Source: Heliocidaris erythrogramma
Lineage: Eukaryota; Echinodermata; Echinoidea; Camarodonta; Echinometridae
Reading direction: 5' to 3'
Assembly: GCA_025617745.1 (NCBI GenBank)
Contig: CM046856.1
Span: 45,065,049 to 45,129,048, forward strand
Length of the DNA: 64,000 nt
Shown: positions 23,376 through 64,000 of the stretch, piece by piece
Numbering within the stretch: the stretch's first letter is position 1
How the letters are laid out: each line of letters opens with the position of its first letter
Translations under genes and position numbers: made by a program
Notes under the pieces: model-generated
The model's database searches: none
What the model was told of the DNA's origin: nothing
Seen by the model: only the letters and a program-made list of their open reading frames with translations

Positions 23376-23567
23376 TTTTCAATCAAAACCTAGCAAAAAG
23401 TATCTGTTCACTATTGAAAGTCATAATTCATTTGTCGTGTGTATGGTCGTAGGGATTGTGAAACGTGATTTGCGGTTACATTGGGAAAGATATGGGGTGT
23501 ACTTACAGCGTTTTGGTGCCAGGAGATATGTCGTAGATGATTGTTGATCAGCTAGAGAAAATGTGTT

Positions 23568-24745
23568 TTTATGCCTCTGCCCACCGAAGGTGGTGCCGGA
23601 GTCGTCATGTTTTCGGGTTGTCCTTCCGTCAGTCCGCCCTGCTTTCTCGTTCTCGCGATAACTCAAGAACCATTTGAGGTATGAACTTTAAACTTGGTGC
23701 TAGTATGTATCACCATAGGAAGACAATCTGATTAGATTTTGGGGTGCGTAGGTCAAAGGTCAAAGGTCATAAAGGCCAATTTCTGAAATTTCAGGTGTTA
23801 GCCGTGTTCTCGCAATAATCCAAAAACCATTTGAGGTATGACCTTCAAACTTGGTACTAGTATGTATCACCATAGAAAGACGATCTGATTAGATTTTAGG
23901 TACATAGATCAAAGGTCAAAGGTCATAGAGGTCAATTCTAAAATTGCAGATTTTAGTCTTGTTAACGTGATATCTCAAGAACCATTTGATCTATTAACTT
24001 CAAACTTGGAACTAGTATCCATCACCATAGACCACATTTACACCGGAATACTAAGGAGTCTCAGGGGGCCCCGAGACTGGTCTCTGGTAGGTTTCAAATC
24101 TGGTGTAAATGCATGAAATCTACCCAAGACCACTTCCGAGCAAACCAGTCTCAAACTACCTAGCGATGTGGTCCGAGACTGGTTCAGGGGTGCCCCGAGA
24201 CTCCTTAGGATCGGTGTAAACGCTAACCTACCCGAGACTAGTTTGTGCGCTGCTAACACATGTGGAATGATTGCGTCATGGCAAACACAGCGCGCACTAA
24301 ATACAGTCCGCCCACGCCCACAACGTCAGCAAACAGAAAGTCTCACTCGAAACCTATCTCGGGTAGCTTTGGGTAAGATGGTGTAAACGCAAAAAAAGCA
24401 GTCTCGGGGTGCCCCAAGACACTTTACGATTTTGGTGAAACAGGGATCCCAAAATTTGGGTCAGCTTGTAACAGGGGTCATAATGAGACAAACTGATTAG
24501 ATATTTGTTCACGTAGGTCAAAGGTGACAGGTCATAGAGGTCATTATACAGGTGTATGTGAAATTATTTTGTACCTTTGTTATCACCATATCTCAACTAT
24601 TTTGTATTCATGACTAGGAGGAGATAAAGTGATCAGACCTTTGGGTTATAAGGTGTAAGGTCAAATGTCAAAGAGGTCAATTAACATGTAATTATAGGCT
24701 TTTTGTTCTTGTTATCACAATATTTCAAGAACAGTTTGAGCCATT
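23568..24745. mobile_element. TTTATGCCTCYGCC element, copy 1 (diverged, interrupted, 3' truncated)
   Basis: It begins like the element at 41668 (TTTATGCCTCTGCCCACC, then GTTTTCGGGTTGTCC) and continues through at least four diverged 170-bp-type monomers: GATATCTCAAGAACCATTTG, then AACTTCAAACTTGG, then a cluster of AGGTCA-like half-sites. It is interrupted by a CpG-rich insertion at about 24031-24447. The right terminal repeat seen in the other copy is missing. Confidence 0.8.
24031..24447. mobile_element. CpG-rich TIR insertion inside the 23568 element
   Basis: The left end (CATTTACACCGGAATACTAA...GGAGTCTCAGG) and the right end in reverse complement (GTTTCACCAAAATCGTAAAG...TGTCTTGGGG) match imperfectly for about 45 bases and both lead into CCCCGAGACTG. 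The motif GCGTTTACACC or its reverse appears five times inside (24036, 24099, 24212, 24381, 24433 approximately), so the left half is itself an inverted repeat (a composite or twice-inserted element). Both flanks are fragments of the host monomer. No transposase is encoded; 72-73-codon frames on both strands are shadows of the palindromic structure. Confidence 0.7.
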
Positions 24746-25385
24746 CGCTTTTCTTGCTTTGTCCCAGCAGTTTGAATTTAAATTCACATACTGGTATTGG
24801 ATTAGGCAAATCATACAATAAGTTTTCTCATAAATATGTTATCTGTCAACATAGCATATATGTAATTTATACGTAATAAAATTTCATTAAATCTTTTATT
24901 TTGTCATTACTGAAAAAAAAATTACCAAACAGAAATTGGCAATTTAACAAGTATGGATCAGGTCATATCATAAATTGTTAAATGTCATCAAAATAGTAAT
25001 TAGATTTGTGCCAAAGAGCACTGACATGATTTATTTTTAGCCTAAGCAAACTCTTAAAATCTAGTAGGCAGATTTTTGTCAACGACTAGAACCATTACCT
25101 GCTTATGAAATGATATTGGTTATACACTGTATATAACCCGGGCTCTAATATTCATTAGATTTTTCATTAAGTATTGTTATAGAGTCTGCTTTTGCAGACT
25201 ATCATGTTACTGGCCAATACTAATTACTATCATGTAGGACAGACCAAGTTCTCCCACTAATACCGTCCTTCTCCCCTAGAAAAAAAATGGGAAGGGATTG
25301 AGAGAAAAAATAGAATTTATGGGAATGATGAAAATTAGAATGACCTTTTAGTTAATGAACTTGCCTGGTTGAGGGTCAGTCAGCA
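24746..25385. other. intron-like sequence, nothing recognised
   Basis: AT-rich DNA with no supported feature. Confidence 0.35.
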
Positions 25386-36339: not shown

Positions 36340-39290
36340 CTCTCTCTAGCTCTCTCCCTCTCCTTTTGTTTCTGTCTCTTCTCTCTCTCCTTCTGTTTCT
36401 TCTCTCTCTCCTTCTGTTTGTGTCTTCTCTCTCTCCTGTTTCTGTCTCTTCACTCTCTCCTGTTTCTGTCTCCTCTCCTGTTTCTGTCTCTTCTCTCTCT
36501 CCTTCTGTTTCTGTCTCTTCTCTCTCTCCTTCTGTTCTGTCTCTCCTCTCTCTCCTTCTGTTTGTTTCTTCTCTCTCTCCTTCTGTTTCTGTTTCTTCTC
36601 TCTCTCCTTCTGTTTCTGTCTCTTCTCTCTCTCCTTCTGTTTCTGTCTCTTCTCTCTCTCCTTCTGTTTCTGTTTCTTCTCTCTCTCCTTCTGTTTCTGT
36701 TTCTTCTCTCTCTCCTTCTGTTTCTGTTTCTTCTCTCTCTCCTTCTGTTTCTGTCTCTTTCTCTCTCTCCTTCTGTTTCTGTTTCTTCTCTCTCTCCTTC
36801 TGTTTCTGTTTCTTCTCTCTCTCCTTCTGTTTCTGTCTCTTCTCTCTCTCCTTCTGTTTCTGTTTCTTCTCTCTCTCCTTCTGTTTCTGTTTCTTCTCTC
36901 TCTCCTTCTGTTTCTGTCTCTTCTCTCTCTCCTTCTGTTCTGTCTCTCCTCTCTCTCCTTCTGTTTCTGTTTCTTCTCTCTCTCCTTCTGTTTCTGTTTC
37001 TTCTCTCTCTCCTTCTGTTTCTGTCTCTTCTCTCTCTCCTTCTGTTCTGTCTCTCCTCTCTCTCCTTCTGTTTCTGTTTCTTCTCTCTCTCCTTCTGTTT
37101 CTGTTTCTTCTCTCTCTCCTTCTGTTTGTTTCTTCTCTCTCTCCTTCTGTTTCTGTTTCTTCTCTCTCTCCTTCTGTTTCTGTCTCTTCTCTCTCTCCTT
37201 CTGTTCTGTCTCTTCTCTCTCTCCTTCTGTTTCTGTTTCTTCTCTCTCTCCTTCTGTTTCTGTCTCTTCTCTCTCTCCTTCTGTTTCTGTCTCTTCTCTC
37301 TCTCCTTCTGTTTCTGTTTCTTCTCTCTCTCCTTCTGTTTCTGTTTCTTCTCTCTCTCCTTCTGTTTCTGTCTCTTCTCTCTCTCCTTCTGTTTCTGTTT
37401 CTTCTCTCTCTCCTTCTGTTTCTGTTTCTTCTCTCTCTCCTTCTGTTTGTTTCTTCTCTCTCTCCTTCTGTTTCTGTTTCTTCTCTCTCTCCTTCTGTTT
37501 CTGTTTCTTCTCTCTCTCCTTCTGTTTCTGTTTCTTCTCTCTCTCCTTCTGTTTGTTTCTTCTCTCTCTCCTTCTGTTTCTGTTTCTTCTCTCTCTCCTT
37601 CTGTTTCTGTTTCTTCTCTCTCTCCTTCTGTTTCTGTCTCTTCTCTCTCTCCTCTCCTGTTTCTGTTTCTTCTCTCTCTCCTTCTGTTTCTGTTTCTTCT
37701 CTCTCTCCTTCTGTTTGTTTCTTCTCTCTCTCCTTCTGTTCTGTCTCTTCTCTCTCTCCTTCTGTTTCTGTTTCTTCTCTCTCTCCTTCTGTTTCTGTCT
37801 CTTCTCTCTCTCCTTCTGTTCTGTCTCTTCTCTCTCTCCTTCTGTTTCTGTTTCTTCTCTCTCTCCTTCTGTTCTGTCTCTCCTCTCTCTCCTTCTGTTT
37901 CTGTTTCTTCTCTCTCTCCTTCTGTTTCTGTTTCTTCCCTCTCTCCTTCTGTTTGTTTCTTCTCTCTCTCCTTCTGTTTCTGTTTCTTCTCTCTCTCCTT
38001 CTGTTTCTGTTTCTTCTCTCTCTCCTTCTGTTTCTGTTTCTTCTCTCTCTCCTTCTGTTTGTCTCTTCTCTCTCTCCTTCTGTTTCTGTTTCTTCTCTCT
38101 CTCCTTCTGTTTCTGTCTCTTCTCTCTCTCCTTCTGTTTCTGTCTCTTCTCTCTCTCCTTCTGTTTCTGTTTCTTCTCTCTCTCCTTCTGTTTCTGTTTC
38201 TTCTCTCTCTCCTTCTGTTTCTGTTTCTTCTCTCTCTCCTTCTGTTTCTGTTTCTTCTCTCTCTCCTTCTGTTTCTGTCTCTTCTCTCTCTCCTTCTGTT
38301 TCTGTTTCTTCTCTCTCTCCTTCTGTTTCTGTCTCTTCTCTCTCTCCTTCTGTTTCTGTTTCTTCTCTCTCTCCTTCTGTTTCTGTCTCTTCTCTCTCTC
38401 CTTCTGTTTCTGTTTCTTCTCTCTCTCCTTCTGTTTCTGTTTCTTCTCTCTCTCCTTCTGTTTCTGTTTCTTCTCTCTCTCCTTCTGTTTCTGTTTCTTC
38501 TCTCTCTCCTTCTGTTTCTGTTTCTTCTCTCTCTCCTTCTGTTTGTTTCTTCTCTCTCTCCTTCTGTTTCTGTTTCTTCTCTCTCTCCTTCTGTTTCTGT
38601 TTCTTCTCTCTCTCCTTCTGTTTCTGTCTCTTCTCTCTCTCCTTCTGTTCTGTCTCTTCTCTCTCTCCTTCTGTTTCTGTTTCTTCTCTCTCCTTCTGTT
38701 CTGTCTCTCCTCTCTCTCCTTCTGTTTCTGTTTCTTCTCTCTCTCCTTCTGTTTCTGTTTCTTCTCTCTCTCCTTCTGTTCTGTCTCTTCTCTCTCTCCT
38801 TCTGTTTCTGTTTCTTCTCTCTCTCCTTTTGTTCTGTCTCTCCTCTCTCTCCTTCTGTTTCTGTTTCTTCTCTCTCTCCTTCTGTTTCTGTTTCTTCTCT
38901 CTCTCCTTCTGTTTGTTTCTTCTCTCTCTCCTTCTGTTTCTGTTTCTTCTCTCTCTCCTTCTGTTTCTGTCTCTTCTCTCTCTCCTTCTGTTCTGTCTCT
39001 TCTCTCTCTCCTTCTGTTTCTGTTTCTTCTCTCTCTCCTTCTGTTTCTGTCTCTTCTCTCTCTCCTTCTGTTTCTGTCTCTTCTCTCTCTCCTTCTGTTT
39101 CTGTTTCTTCTCTCTCTCCTTCTGTTTCTGTTTCTTCTCTCTCTCCTTCTGTTTCTGTTTCTTCTCTCTCTCCTTCTGTTTCTGTTTCTTCTCTCTCTCC
39201 TTCTGTTTCTGTTTCTTCTCTCTCTCCTTCTGTTTCTGTCTCTTCTCTTTCTCCTTCTGTTTCTGTCTCTGTTCTATTTCTGTCTCTGTA
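36340..39290. repeat. 2.9-kb polypyrimidine minisatellite (27-bp unit), adenine-free on + strand
   Basis: About 110 tandem units. The commonest is 27 bp: TTTCTGTTTCTT, then CTCTCTCTCC, then TTCTG. Variants of 26 bp (TTCTGTCTCTT start) and 25 bp (TTTGTTTCTT start) occur, and blocks of variant units recur (for example near 37048-37220, 37871-37960 and 38827-39000), so the array grew by segmental duplication. From 36453 to 39275 the + strand has no A. Because every stop codon contains A and T, neither strand can contain a stop in any frame there; this explains five overlapping open frames of 591 to 1046 codons, none of which I take as genes. The strand asymmetry makes triplex (H-DNA) formation plausible. 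Confidence 0.95.
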
Positions 39291-39870: not shown

Positions 39871-39879
39871 GGGTGGAAA

Positions 39880-40425
39880 GAAATAGTGTGGAAGATGATG
39901 TTGGAAGGAAATAGTATGGAAGATGATGTTGGAAGGAAATGGTATGGACATGATGGAAGATGATGTTGGAAGGAAATGGTATGGAAGATGATGTTGGAAG
40001 GAAATAGTATGGAAGATGATGTTGGAAGGAAATAGTATGGAAGATGATGTTGGAAGGAAATAGTATGGAAGATGCTGTTGGAAGGAAATGGTATGGAAGA
40101 TGATGTTGGAAGGAATAGTATAGAAGATGATGTTGGAAGAAAATAGTATGGAAGATGATGTTGGAGAGAAATAGTATGGAAGATGATGTTAGAAGGAAAT
40201 GGTATGGAAGATGATGTTGGAAAGAAATAGTATGGAAGATGATGTTAGAAGGAAATGATATGGAAGATGATGTTGGAAGGAAATAGTATGGAAGATGATG
40301 TTGGAAGGAAATAGTATGGAAGATGATGTTGGAAGGAAAAGGTATGGAAGATGATGTTGGAAGGAAATAGTATGGAAGATGATGTTGGAAAGAAATAGTA
40401 TGGAAGATGATGTTGGAAGGAAATT
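39880..40425. repeat. 28-bp minisatellite, about 19 units
   Basis: Unit ATGGAAGATGATGTTGGAAG plus GAAATAGT, with single-base variants and one unit expanded by an ACATGATGGA insertion near 39946. Purine-rich on the + strand. A 120-codon minus-strand frame crosses it by periodicity and is not a gene. Confidence 0.95.
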
Positions 40426-41010: not shown

Positions 41011-41665
41011 AGGAAGAAACAAAAAACAGGGAAATGGGGAAATAATAAGAGTGATGTGAGAGAAAAATCAAGGATTATTTCCTAATTTTTAATGTGGTTC
41101 TTTCACATTGACTTAAATTTCAGTTGTACATAAGATCAGCATCAATTTTAATACAATAGATCTTTTAGGTGACGTACTATGGTGCAATAAGCTTGTAAAA
41201 CCATCAGGATGAAAAAAGGCAGATCAATTGAAAATTAAAACATTAAATTGAAAGAGAAGATATTTGGTATTTTCATTTACAAGGTCATCTAGAGGCATTG
41301 CAATCACCATTGATGTGTGAAACACCACTTATGATAATTAGATTATAAGATGACCTCTTCCTCAATCAGGATTTGTAAATAATCTAGTTATGATATTAAG
41401 AGAAGCTAGTGGTCATCTTACCCTATTCTTATGTCCTATTTCAGTTATTGTAGAAGTACATTATGGGTTTCAACCGTTCCTAGAAATGAATAGGAAAACC
41501 AACACAGTACCTTATTCCGTAATGGTAGAATAAATTGAATGAGACGTGATAAATTGAATCTCATTTTTTTGTTCATAAATATATGATAGAATTTTAAAAT
41601 GGAACATATTTGAAAGATTCAAGCTAAAAGGTGATAATTAATGCACAGCTCTTTATTGCAATACA
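41011..41665. other. intron-like sequence, nothing recognised
   Basis: AT-rich DNA with no supported feature. Confidence 0.35.
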
Positions 41666-41780
41666 TTTTTATGCCTCCGCCCACCGAAGGTGGGTGCCGG
41701 AGGCATTATGTTTTCGGGTTGTCCGTCCGTCCGTGCGTCCGTCCGTGTGTCCGTCCGTGTGTCCGTCCGTCCCACTTCTC

Positions 41781-42975
41781 GTTACCGCGATATCTGAAGA
41801 ATCATTTGAGGTAGGAACCTCAAACTTGGTACTAGTATGTATACCCATACGAAGATGAACTGATTAGATTTTGGGGTAAGTAGGTCAAAGGTCAGAGGTC
41901 ACAGAGGTCAATTTACATGAAATTACATAAGAATTCTTGGTTTTTAGCACCGTTACCACGATATCTCAAGAACTATCTGAGGTGAGAACTTCAAACTTGG
42001 TACCAGTATGTATCCCCATAGAAAGATGAACTGATTAGATTTTGGGGTAAGTAGGTCAAAGGTCAGAGGTCACAGAGGTCAATTTACATGAAATTACATG
42101 GAATTACTGGTTTTTAGCACCGTTACCGCGATATCTCAAGAACTATCTGAGGTGAGAACTTCAAACTTGGTACCAGTATGTATCCCCATACGAAGATGAA
42201 CTGATTAGATTTTGGGGTAAGTAGGTCAAAGGTCAGAGGTCACAGAGGTCAATTTACATGAAATTACATAAGAATTCTTGGTTTTTAGCACCGTTACCAC
42301 GATATCTCAAGAACTATCTGAGGTGAGAACTTCAAACTTGGTACCAGTATGTATCCCCATAGAAAGATGAACTGATTAGATTTTGGGGTAAGTAGGTCAA
42401 AGGTCAGAGGTCACAGAGGTCAATTTACATGAAATTACATGGAATTAGTGGTTTTTACCACCGTTACCGCGATATCTCAAGAACTATCTGAGGTGAGAAC
42501 TTCAAACTTGGTACCAGTATGTATCCCCATAGAAAGATGAACTGATTAGATTTTGGGGTAAGTAGGTCAAAGGTCAGAGGTCACAGGTCAATTTACCTGA
42601 AATTACATAAAAATTCTTGGTTTTTAGCACCGTTACCACGATATCTCGAACTGTTTGAGGTAAGAACTTCAAACTTGGTACTAGTATGTTACCGTATACG
42701 AAGATGAACTGATTAGATTTTGGGGTAGGTAGGTCAAAGTTCAAAGGTCACAGAGGTCAATTTACATGAAATTACATGGAATTAGTGGTTTTTACCACCG
42801 TTACCGCGATATCTCAAGAACTATCTGAGGTGAGAACTTCAAACTTGGTACCAGTATGCATACCCATAGAAAGATGAACTGATTAGATTTTTGGGTAAGT
42901 AGGTCAAAGGTCAGAGGTCACAGAGGTCAATTTACATAAAATTACATGAAATTACTGGTTTTTAGCCTTGTTATC
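41781..42975. repeat. seven tandem 170-bp monomers with AGGTCA half-site clusters
   Basis: The landmark GATGAACTGATTAG starts at 41854, 42025, 42195, 42366, 42536, 42703 and 42873, a period of 167-171. Monomers alternate between two types, ATAAGAATTCTTGG with TTACCACG and ATGGAATTASTGG with TTACCGCG, giving a dimeric higher-order repeat of about 341 bp. Each monomer carries AGGTCA, A, AGGTCA, G, AGGTCA, CAG, AGGTCA in series (spacing 1, 1, 3). Unit 5 has spacing 1, 1, 1, and unit 6 has one AGTTCA. In total 27 exact half-sites plus one variant. Confidence 0.93.
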
Positions 42976-43133
42976 AAATATTTCTAGTTTTATATGAAAA
43001 TGAAATGAAATAAATTTTTCTGTCTCCTGTGCATTTTAAGTGAAAAGATTTGTCATTTTGTTGGACCAGTCCTTTTTAGAGTGTACATGTATGCCATACA
43101 TTTCCAATCTGGTGATGGCGGAGGCATAAATTC

Positions 43134-43149
43134 CGACCGCGCGCGGTCG
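43134..43149. repeat. perfect 16-bp CG-rich palindrome
   Basis: CGACCGCGCGCGGTCG is self-complementary and sits four bases outside the right terminal repeat of the element. With six CpGs in AT-rich DNA it stands out as a possible methylation or cruciform site; function unknown. Confidence 0.85.
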
Positions 43150-43308
43150 AATATTCATCTAGTTTTACTATGATTATGTCCAGCCATATGGCAAACATGA
43201 TAATAGTAATAATAATAAAGTGAGCATGAAAGTTTATTAAAAATATTTATCTTTTTAAATACTGTCCTAAATATGTCACATGGAGTATACATGTATTTCT
43301 TGGATACG

Positions 43309-63506: not shown

Positions 63507-64000
63507 AATTGCATTCAACATGTATTTCAATCTTCGTTATTCCTCACCCGAAACTACCAATTCCCTTTAAGGCATGACCATAGTACAGGTGTTTCGCTTC
63601 AGTGTATGAATGATGCCATTATCTCATCTGACTTGTTTTTCTCTTCTTTCCACCAGAGACTTATACAATCCTGACATTCATATTCCACATATCTAATGAT
63701 CTCATTTCATACTCTCACATAACCTTTCACCTCTGACCTCAATCCTAACCCCCAGTAGTCTTCTGAATAATTCAAACTCATATTTCAGATATTTCTGTAA
63801 TGATGATATCTCGCTGGGGCTGCAGGTAATTTGTAATATGAAAGAAAGGTTTAGAATTCGCAAAGTACCAAAAGAAGGAAATTTCCTGTGTTCTAGGTGG
63901 TAGGTCTGTGAATTTTATAAGCAATGTTCCTGCATGTTATACTATTACTTTGTTGTACAATACATAGAAAAAACAATTGTAGTGAAATATATATATATTT
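63507..64000. other. intron-like sequence to window end
   Basis: No supported feature; an (AT)n run ends the window. Confidence 0.35.

Follow-up and report, generated by a model that had tools for sequence, protein, structure and literature searches.

At the core of an element of about 1.5 kb, which we identify with high confidence as a non-autonomous Helentron (HINE), lies a tandem array that carries 27 AGGTCA half-sites in one orientation; the window referred to throughout is the whole 64-kb stretch of DNA that was analysed. The original prediction had described a transposon-like element at 41781-42975. The description was right and can be narrowed to the anatomy of a non-autonomous Helentron, that is, subterminal inverted repeats (subTIRs), an internal inverted repeat (IR), a microsatellite, central repeats and a palindrome; the interval is that of the array, and the element itself is larger (about 41666-43163; Table 1). 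Our full explanation, namely that the element is a HINE, that its half-sites are multiplied heptads and that binding by NR2-type receptors would most likely be incidental, we regard as about evenly balanced between right and wrong.

Table 1. Features of the Helentron-like element, its half-site array (A) and the second copy (B). Positions are those of the window.
Feature	Position	Strand	Remarks
Whole element, HINE-like non-autonomous Helentron	41666..43163	+	subTIR pair, T-runs; ends approximate
5' subTIR TTTATGCCTCCGCC	41668..41681	+	100% complementary to 43117-43130
Internal IR CGGAGGCAT	41698..41706	+	pairs with part of the 5' subTIR
GTCC-type microsatellite	41721..41772	+	period 4, 13 copies (TRF)
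Central tandem array	41780..42966	+	seven ~170-bp monomers, readable as 341-bp dimer (TRF)
Monomer starts, array A	41780, 41951, 42121, 42292, 42462, 42631, 42799		
Half-site block, A1	41882..41910	+	DR1-DR1-DR3
Half-site block, A2	42053..42081	+	DR1-DR1-DR3
Half-site block, A3	42223..42251	+	DR1-DR1-DR3
Half-site block, A4	42394..42422	+	DR1-DR1-DR3
Half-site block, A5	42564..42590	+	DR1-DR1-DR1, two spacer bases absent
Half-site block, A6	42731..42759	+	DR1-DR1-DR3, AGTTCA as second site
Half-site block, A7	42901..42929	+	DR1-DR1-DR3
3' subTIR	43117..43130	-	14 nt, perfect complement of the 5' subTIR
Palindrome CGACCGCGCGCGGTCG, 3' stem-loop	43134..43149	+	perfect, 16 bp; read by eye
Second copy	23566..24760	+	left end, monomers B1-B4, truncated B5
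Insertion splitting monomer B3 of the second copy	24031..24487	+	inverted-repeat-rich; ends approximate

Anatomy of the element

The element has the parts expected of a HINE: subTIRs within the 11-15 nt range near both ends (14 nt, 100% complementary), an internal IR near the 5' subTIR, a GTCC-type microsatellite past the left end, central tandem repeats (170 bp x 7), a 3' palindrome able to form a stem-loop (16 bp) and no coding capacity. Both ends of the element fall in T-runs (41666-41670 and 43163-43166). The 5' subTIR and the internal IR, which is separated from its partner arm by 18 nt, are predicted to form a strong hairpin (DNA fold of 41664-41725, z = -6.1; 0 of 200 shuffles were equally stable). 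At the other end, the predicted fold of 43115-43165 (51 nt) includes the palindrome stem, with a stability no better than that of shuffles (z = -0.5; 57 of 200 fold as well). The palindrome is followed, 9 bp further on, by CTAG (43159-43162) and then by the T-run; some 32 bp separate the 3' subTIR from the presumed 3' end. About 150 bp separate the array from the 3' subTIR, and this stretch has no match elsewhere in the window. The two perfect matches to the subTIR in the window are exactly the two ends of this one element; when three mismatches are allowed the motif is not enriched (4 matches where 2.1 are expected, a count equalled or exceeded in 17 of 100 shuffles). Eight-nucleotide matches to the 5' end (62352) or to its complement (28612) showed no element structure on reading.

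We rejected a reading as protein-coding sequence or as an RNA gene. None of the 89 listed stop-to-stop ORFs of at least 80 aa overlaps 41666-43163, one translated frame of 41667-42280 gave no Pfam match up to E 1, and the monomers are 168-171 bp long, so no single reading frame is shared through the array. The window contains no Rfam match at gathering score and no tRNA; a search of eight translated stretches against Pfam returned a single weak match, below the cut-off (E 0.13), in the insertion within the second copy. The window's base composition, its scarcity of recognizable coding sequence and its repeat families give an impression of a marine invertebrate. Pattern scans of viral and prokaryote contig collections, from which records of the source or very near genomes may be absent, found no relatives. 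Four loci from one of the viral-contig scans (L001-L004) were judged to be chance matches: they look phage- or bacterial-like by eye, with no tandem array in the stretches read.

The closest anatomical parallels come from published descriptions that we cite from excerpts. In the excerpts of PMC7492417, the Cg_HINEs of the Pacific oyster are built in the order 5' subTIR, IR, microsatellite, central repeats, 3' subTIR, palindrome; several have GTCY, GTCC or GTCK microsatellites, and their repeat consensus is 138-181 bp long (mostly 140-180). The element described here resembles them in the order of its parts, the GTCC microsatellite, the repeat length, the short array and the T-rich surroundings; this likeness is one of anatomy and repeat length. 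It differs from the excerpted Cg_HINEs in its subTIRs (14 nt here, 11-12 there), in the gap between the IR and its partner (18 nt here, 1-12 there) and in what follows the last repeat (about 150 bp before the 3' subTIR here, a 60-bp right flank there). The same excerpts report that oyster HINEs with related flanks bear unrelated central repeats; thus, the central repeats need no particular sequence.

The excerpts of PMC4067079 describe DINE-1/HINE elements of Drosophila and mites that share with ours the subTIRs (12-15 nt there), microsatellite, central repeats, 3' palindrome and, putatively, a T-rich insertion site, again as a likeness of anatomy. HINEs are expected to enter T-rich DNA, preferably at TT, without target-site duplication. 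The 18-nt IR gap, which falls outside the Cg_HINE range, is within the DINE-1 range (about 3-22 bp from the 5' subTIR), whereas the 3' subTIR, at about 32 bp, is nearer to the presumed end than in the mite HINEs (38-60; PMC4067079, excerpts). The Tsp transposons of the sea urchin S. purpuratus and the bivalve pearl elements are called DINE-1-like in the excerpts of PMC4067079, and pearl is credited with up to six central repeats of about 160 bp in those of PMC7492417; we set both beside the present element by description only.

A canonical Helitron, as excerpted from PMC4067079, begins with TC and ends in CTRR, has a palindrome of 16-20 nt some 11 bp short of the 3' terminus, and inserts between A and T. 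The CTAG after the palindrome, followed by T, fits this 3' end; a TC start adjoining the 5' subTIR is absent. The subTIRs, the IR and the microsatellite favor a Helentron over a canonical Helitron; the 18-nt IR gap, the right stretch of about 150 bp, the unremarkable 3' fold and the CTAG end speak against a strict HINE.

The half-site array

The original prediction counted 27 AGGTCA in 41781-42975, and this count is exact: all 27 are on the + strand, with no TGACCT. TRF describes the array as a 170-bp unit repeated 7.0 times at 41780-42966 (monomers of 168-171 bp) or, alternatively, as a 341-bp dimer repeated 3.5 times. The DR1/DR3 spacing that had been proposed is also right at the level of sequence, and the DR1-DR1-DR3 blocks have the form of a nuclear receptor response element, in which RGKTCA is repeated directly at intervals of 1-5 bp. 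Five of the seven monomers have DR1-DR1-DR3 with perfect sites throughout, the exceptions being A5 (DR1-DR1-DR1) and A6 (AGTTCA). Four half-sites per monomer, as predicted, are found in perfect form in six of the seven; A6 has three perfect sites and the variant AGTTCA. The seven monomers derive from one unit by copying, so what counts as an independent event is a single block of four half-sites in 29 bp, not 27 separate half-sites.

AGGTCA is in excess in the window as a whole (69 on both strands vs 34.9 +/- 6.0 in shuffles; 0 of 100 shuffles reached 69). By hand count, 39 of these are inside the two element copies (27 + 12) and the other 30 are background. DR1 sites with at most two mismatches number 31 vs 5.3 expected (maximum over 100 shuffles, 12), with 24 in the two copies and 7 elsewhere in the window; all 16 perfect DR1 sites of the window are within the two copies (13 + 3). 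Separately, an overlapping pair of degenerate DR1 sites is found on the - strand at 63720-63739, isolated and outside both copies.

The 341-bp dimer matches better than the 170-bp unit (94% vs 91%, TRF). Alternate monomers of A1-A6 differ downstream of the half-site block, so part of the array probably grew by two-monomer steps.

A second, diverged copy

The left end of the element recurs at 23566-23639 with 88% identity and is followed by monomers of the same family, so ordered as in the first element 18 kb away; two of the monomers are 83.8 and 83.9% identical and three shorter pieces 78-82%. The right end of the first copy has no counterpart in the window. An insertion of roughly 410-460 bp interrupts monomer B3; it looks like a nested non-autonomous element, and around it one 5-bp candidate is the only possible target-site duplication, with none that is clear.

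The original prediction held that a diverged copy at 23568 keeps the half-site layout. It does, in four alignable monomers instead of a single one: each of B1-B4 retains its four half-site positions, spaced DR1-DR1-DR3, and of the 24 half-site bases one is substituted in each of B1, B2 and B3 and three in B4. The variant last half-site that had been read in this copy belongs to B1 only (AGGCCA); in the others the variants are at other positions, that is, the first in B2 (AGATCA), the second in B3 (AGGTGA) and the first and third in B4 (AGGTGT and ATGTCA).

Conservation of the half-sites

We aligned 11 monomers from the two insertions (A1-A7 and B1-B4) and counted inferred changes per alignment column; B5, which is too short to contain the half-site block, was omitted before counting. 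The half-site columns have 7 changes in 24, and all other columns 114 in 136, that is, a rate about one third of that elsewhere (column permutation, P about 0.0005; the observed placement of the half-site mask is the lowest of 160 circular shifts). The proposal that the half-sites decay more slowly than the monomer flanks thus withstood comparison of two copies. The test is post hoc, on two insertions picked because the motif had been noticed, and, since monomers within one array depend on each other, the P values given here should be taken as no more than a guide.

The difference persists when the sample or the alignment is changed. Without B3 and B4 there are 3 changes in 24 columns vs 57 in 131 (P 0.0085; lowest of 155 shifts), without B4 alone P is 0.0002, and with A3 as the single A monomer against B1 and B2 it is 0.021. 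Restriction to the middle columns gives P 0.0012 with all monomers and 0.022 without B3 and B4. When the alignment is repeated under three other MAFFT settings, P is 0.0002 to 0.0008 with all monomers and 0.003 to 0.007 without those two. The lower rate also holds for A, C, G and T columns separately, with small numbers. Within single copies the signal is weaker: array A alone has 1 change in 24 columns vs 31 in 146 (P 0.039; 12 of 170 shifts as low), and copy B alone has 6 in 24 vs 83 in 137 (P 0.0066; 10 of 161 shifts as low). The five spacer columns within the block carry 5 changes in all, and runs of invariant columns also occur elsewhere in the monomer (e.g., AAACTTGG).

The four half-site positions are present in 11 of 11 alignable monomers. 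Ongoing slippage of the heptads as the source of half-site uniformity is disfavored for this reason. Shared ancestry alone is sufficient to explain the layout common to both copies. The low rate of change, seen post hoc in two insertions, hints that the half-sites may be constrained; constraint would fit the contrast between half-sites and spacers, together with the layout of all 11 monomers, better than a pure passenger would.

Origin of the block and readings of the half-sites

From what is described for its family, the protein-less element would depend on the Rep/helicase that an autonomous Helentron encodes to be copied into T-rich DNA. Within the 170-bp monomer, the half-site block reads as AGGTCAN in direct 7-bp repeats; the block most likely arose once, when the heptad was duplicated over a short range in an ancestral monomer, and would then have been multiplied as the monomers and the element were amplified. 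HNF4-type sites are known to include the perfect DR1 with a CAAAG core (PMC3252374, excerpts), so binding of the 16 perfect DR1 sites by NR2-type receptors in vitro is likely, to judge from their sequence. If accessible, these sites would very probably be bound by receptors of the HNF4, RXR and COUP-TF class; such binding would most likely be incidental, with effects on host genes that would arise copy by copy.

The half-sites might instead be a maintained cis-element: NR2-type host receptors would bind the block and open chromatin or drive transcription in the germline or early embryo, aiding the spread of the element, and some copies may act as host enhancers. We consider this possible, if somewhat unlikely. 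It would account for the position of the half-site mask as the lowest of 160 shifts (P 0.0005, and 0.0085 without B3 and B4), for block spacers that vary more than the half-sites they separate (5 changes in 5 columns vs 7 in 24) and for the confinement of the perfect DR1 sites (16 of 16) to the two elements. Precedents exist in excerpted reports: the ISX/ISXR helitrons of Drosophila, which spread MSL sites (PMC4384637), are likewise Helitron-class elements dispersing binding sites for a host regulator, and Alu repeats with DR2 sites that recruit RAR (PMC1785376) or with sequences bound by HNF4 in vitro (PMC3252374) are likewise a repeat family spreading direct-repeat receptor sites. However, for ISX/ISXR both binding and co-option are reported, and for another regulator, and Alu is a SINE, not a rolling-circle element, with binding reported there as well (same excerpts); the sites here are predicted. 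Against maintenance also stand the post hoc nature of a test on two insertions, the weak signal within array A (P 0.039; 12 of 170 shifts) and within copy B (10 of 161 shifts) and the invariant runs in other parts of the monomer.

In its most specific form, that a rolling-circle transposon in a marine-invertebrate-type genome has kept DR1-DR1-DR3 arrays under selection that recruit NR2-type receptors in the germline or embryo, the regulatory proposal is unlikely in our estimate. Were it true, one insertion like that at 41666-43163 would deliver 28 half-sites (27 perfect and one variant). Should selection really be preserving the half-sites, the repeats would count as regulatory cargo and not as filler, and the spread of hormone-receptor sites by a transposon in an invertebrate could readily be studied in this family; otherwise the element is an ordinary one with hitch-hiking half-sites. 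The titration of receptors and the rewiring of their targets that the original prediction raised would be further possible effects. We view a regulatory role as a testable lead for which the sequence comparisons offer modest support.

A reading unrelated to nuclear receptors, which is our own conjecture, is that the heptads are iteron-like: Rep, or a zinc finger associated with it, would be supplied by the autonomous Helentron and bind them, and they would be kept for transposition. The short direct repeats are in one orientation, 7-7-9 bp apart, in a class of element moved by Rep, and the same conservation data (7 in 24 vs 114 in 136) apply; we know of no Rep binding site of the AGGTCA-heptad type, and we count this against it. 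In the excerpts of PMC7492417, the orientation of the array relative to the ends is invariant in oyster Cg_HINEs, as an iteron-like function would have it, but the unrelated repeats of HINEs with related flanks imply that a shared motif is not needed for mobility. Overall, we judge iteron-like heptads to be improbable.

An ordinary satellite, or a tandem duplication of local origin, whose terminal features are due to chance is a very improbable account of the array: although HINE central repeats also occur as classical satellites (PMC7492417, excerpts) and the subTIR motif with three mismatches is not enriched in the window (4 vs 2.1 expected), the left end and monomers recur together in the same order 18 kb away, perfect subTIR matches occur only at the two ends of one element, and the parts stand in HINE order.

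Relation to the literature and neighboring repeats

AGGTCA-rich repeats of a similar kind may occur in other marine invertebrates. To our knowledge, a role, if any, of satellite-like repeats in non-autonomous Helentrons is not established. In the open-licence full-text literature we found no report linking a Helentron with a nuclear receptor and none combining satellite DNA, nuclear receptor, half-site and transposable element. In the same literature, helitron with AGGTCA gave plant papers only (by title), nuclear receptor with AGGTCA, transposable element and tandem repeat gave only a paper on oyster Pdx and insulin, and AGGTCAAAGGTCA was not found among the matches listed. For a Helentron with receptor half-site arrays, we thus found no earlier report in the open-licence full-text literature.

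A 27-bp TC-rich tandem repeat is present in about 110 copies at 36353-39270 (2.9 kb), and all six listed frames are open across it for about 1000 codons. About 600 bp past this array begins a second one, of a 28-bp repeat (ATGGAAGATGATGTTGGAAGGAAATAGT-like) at 39874-40424, which lies about 1.2 kb upstream of the element.
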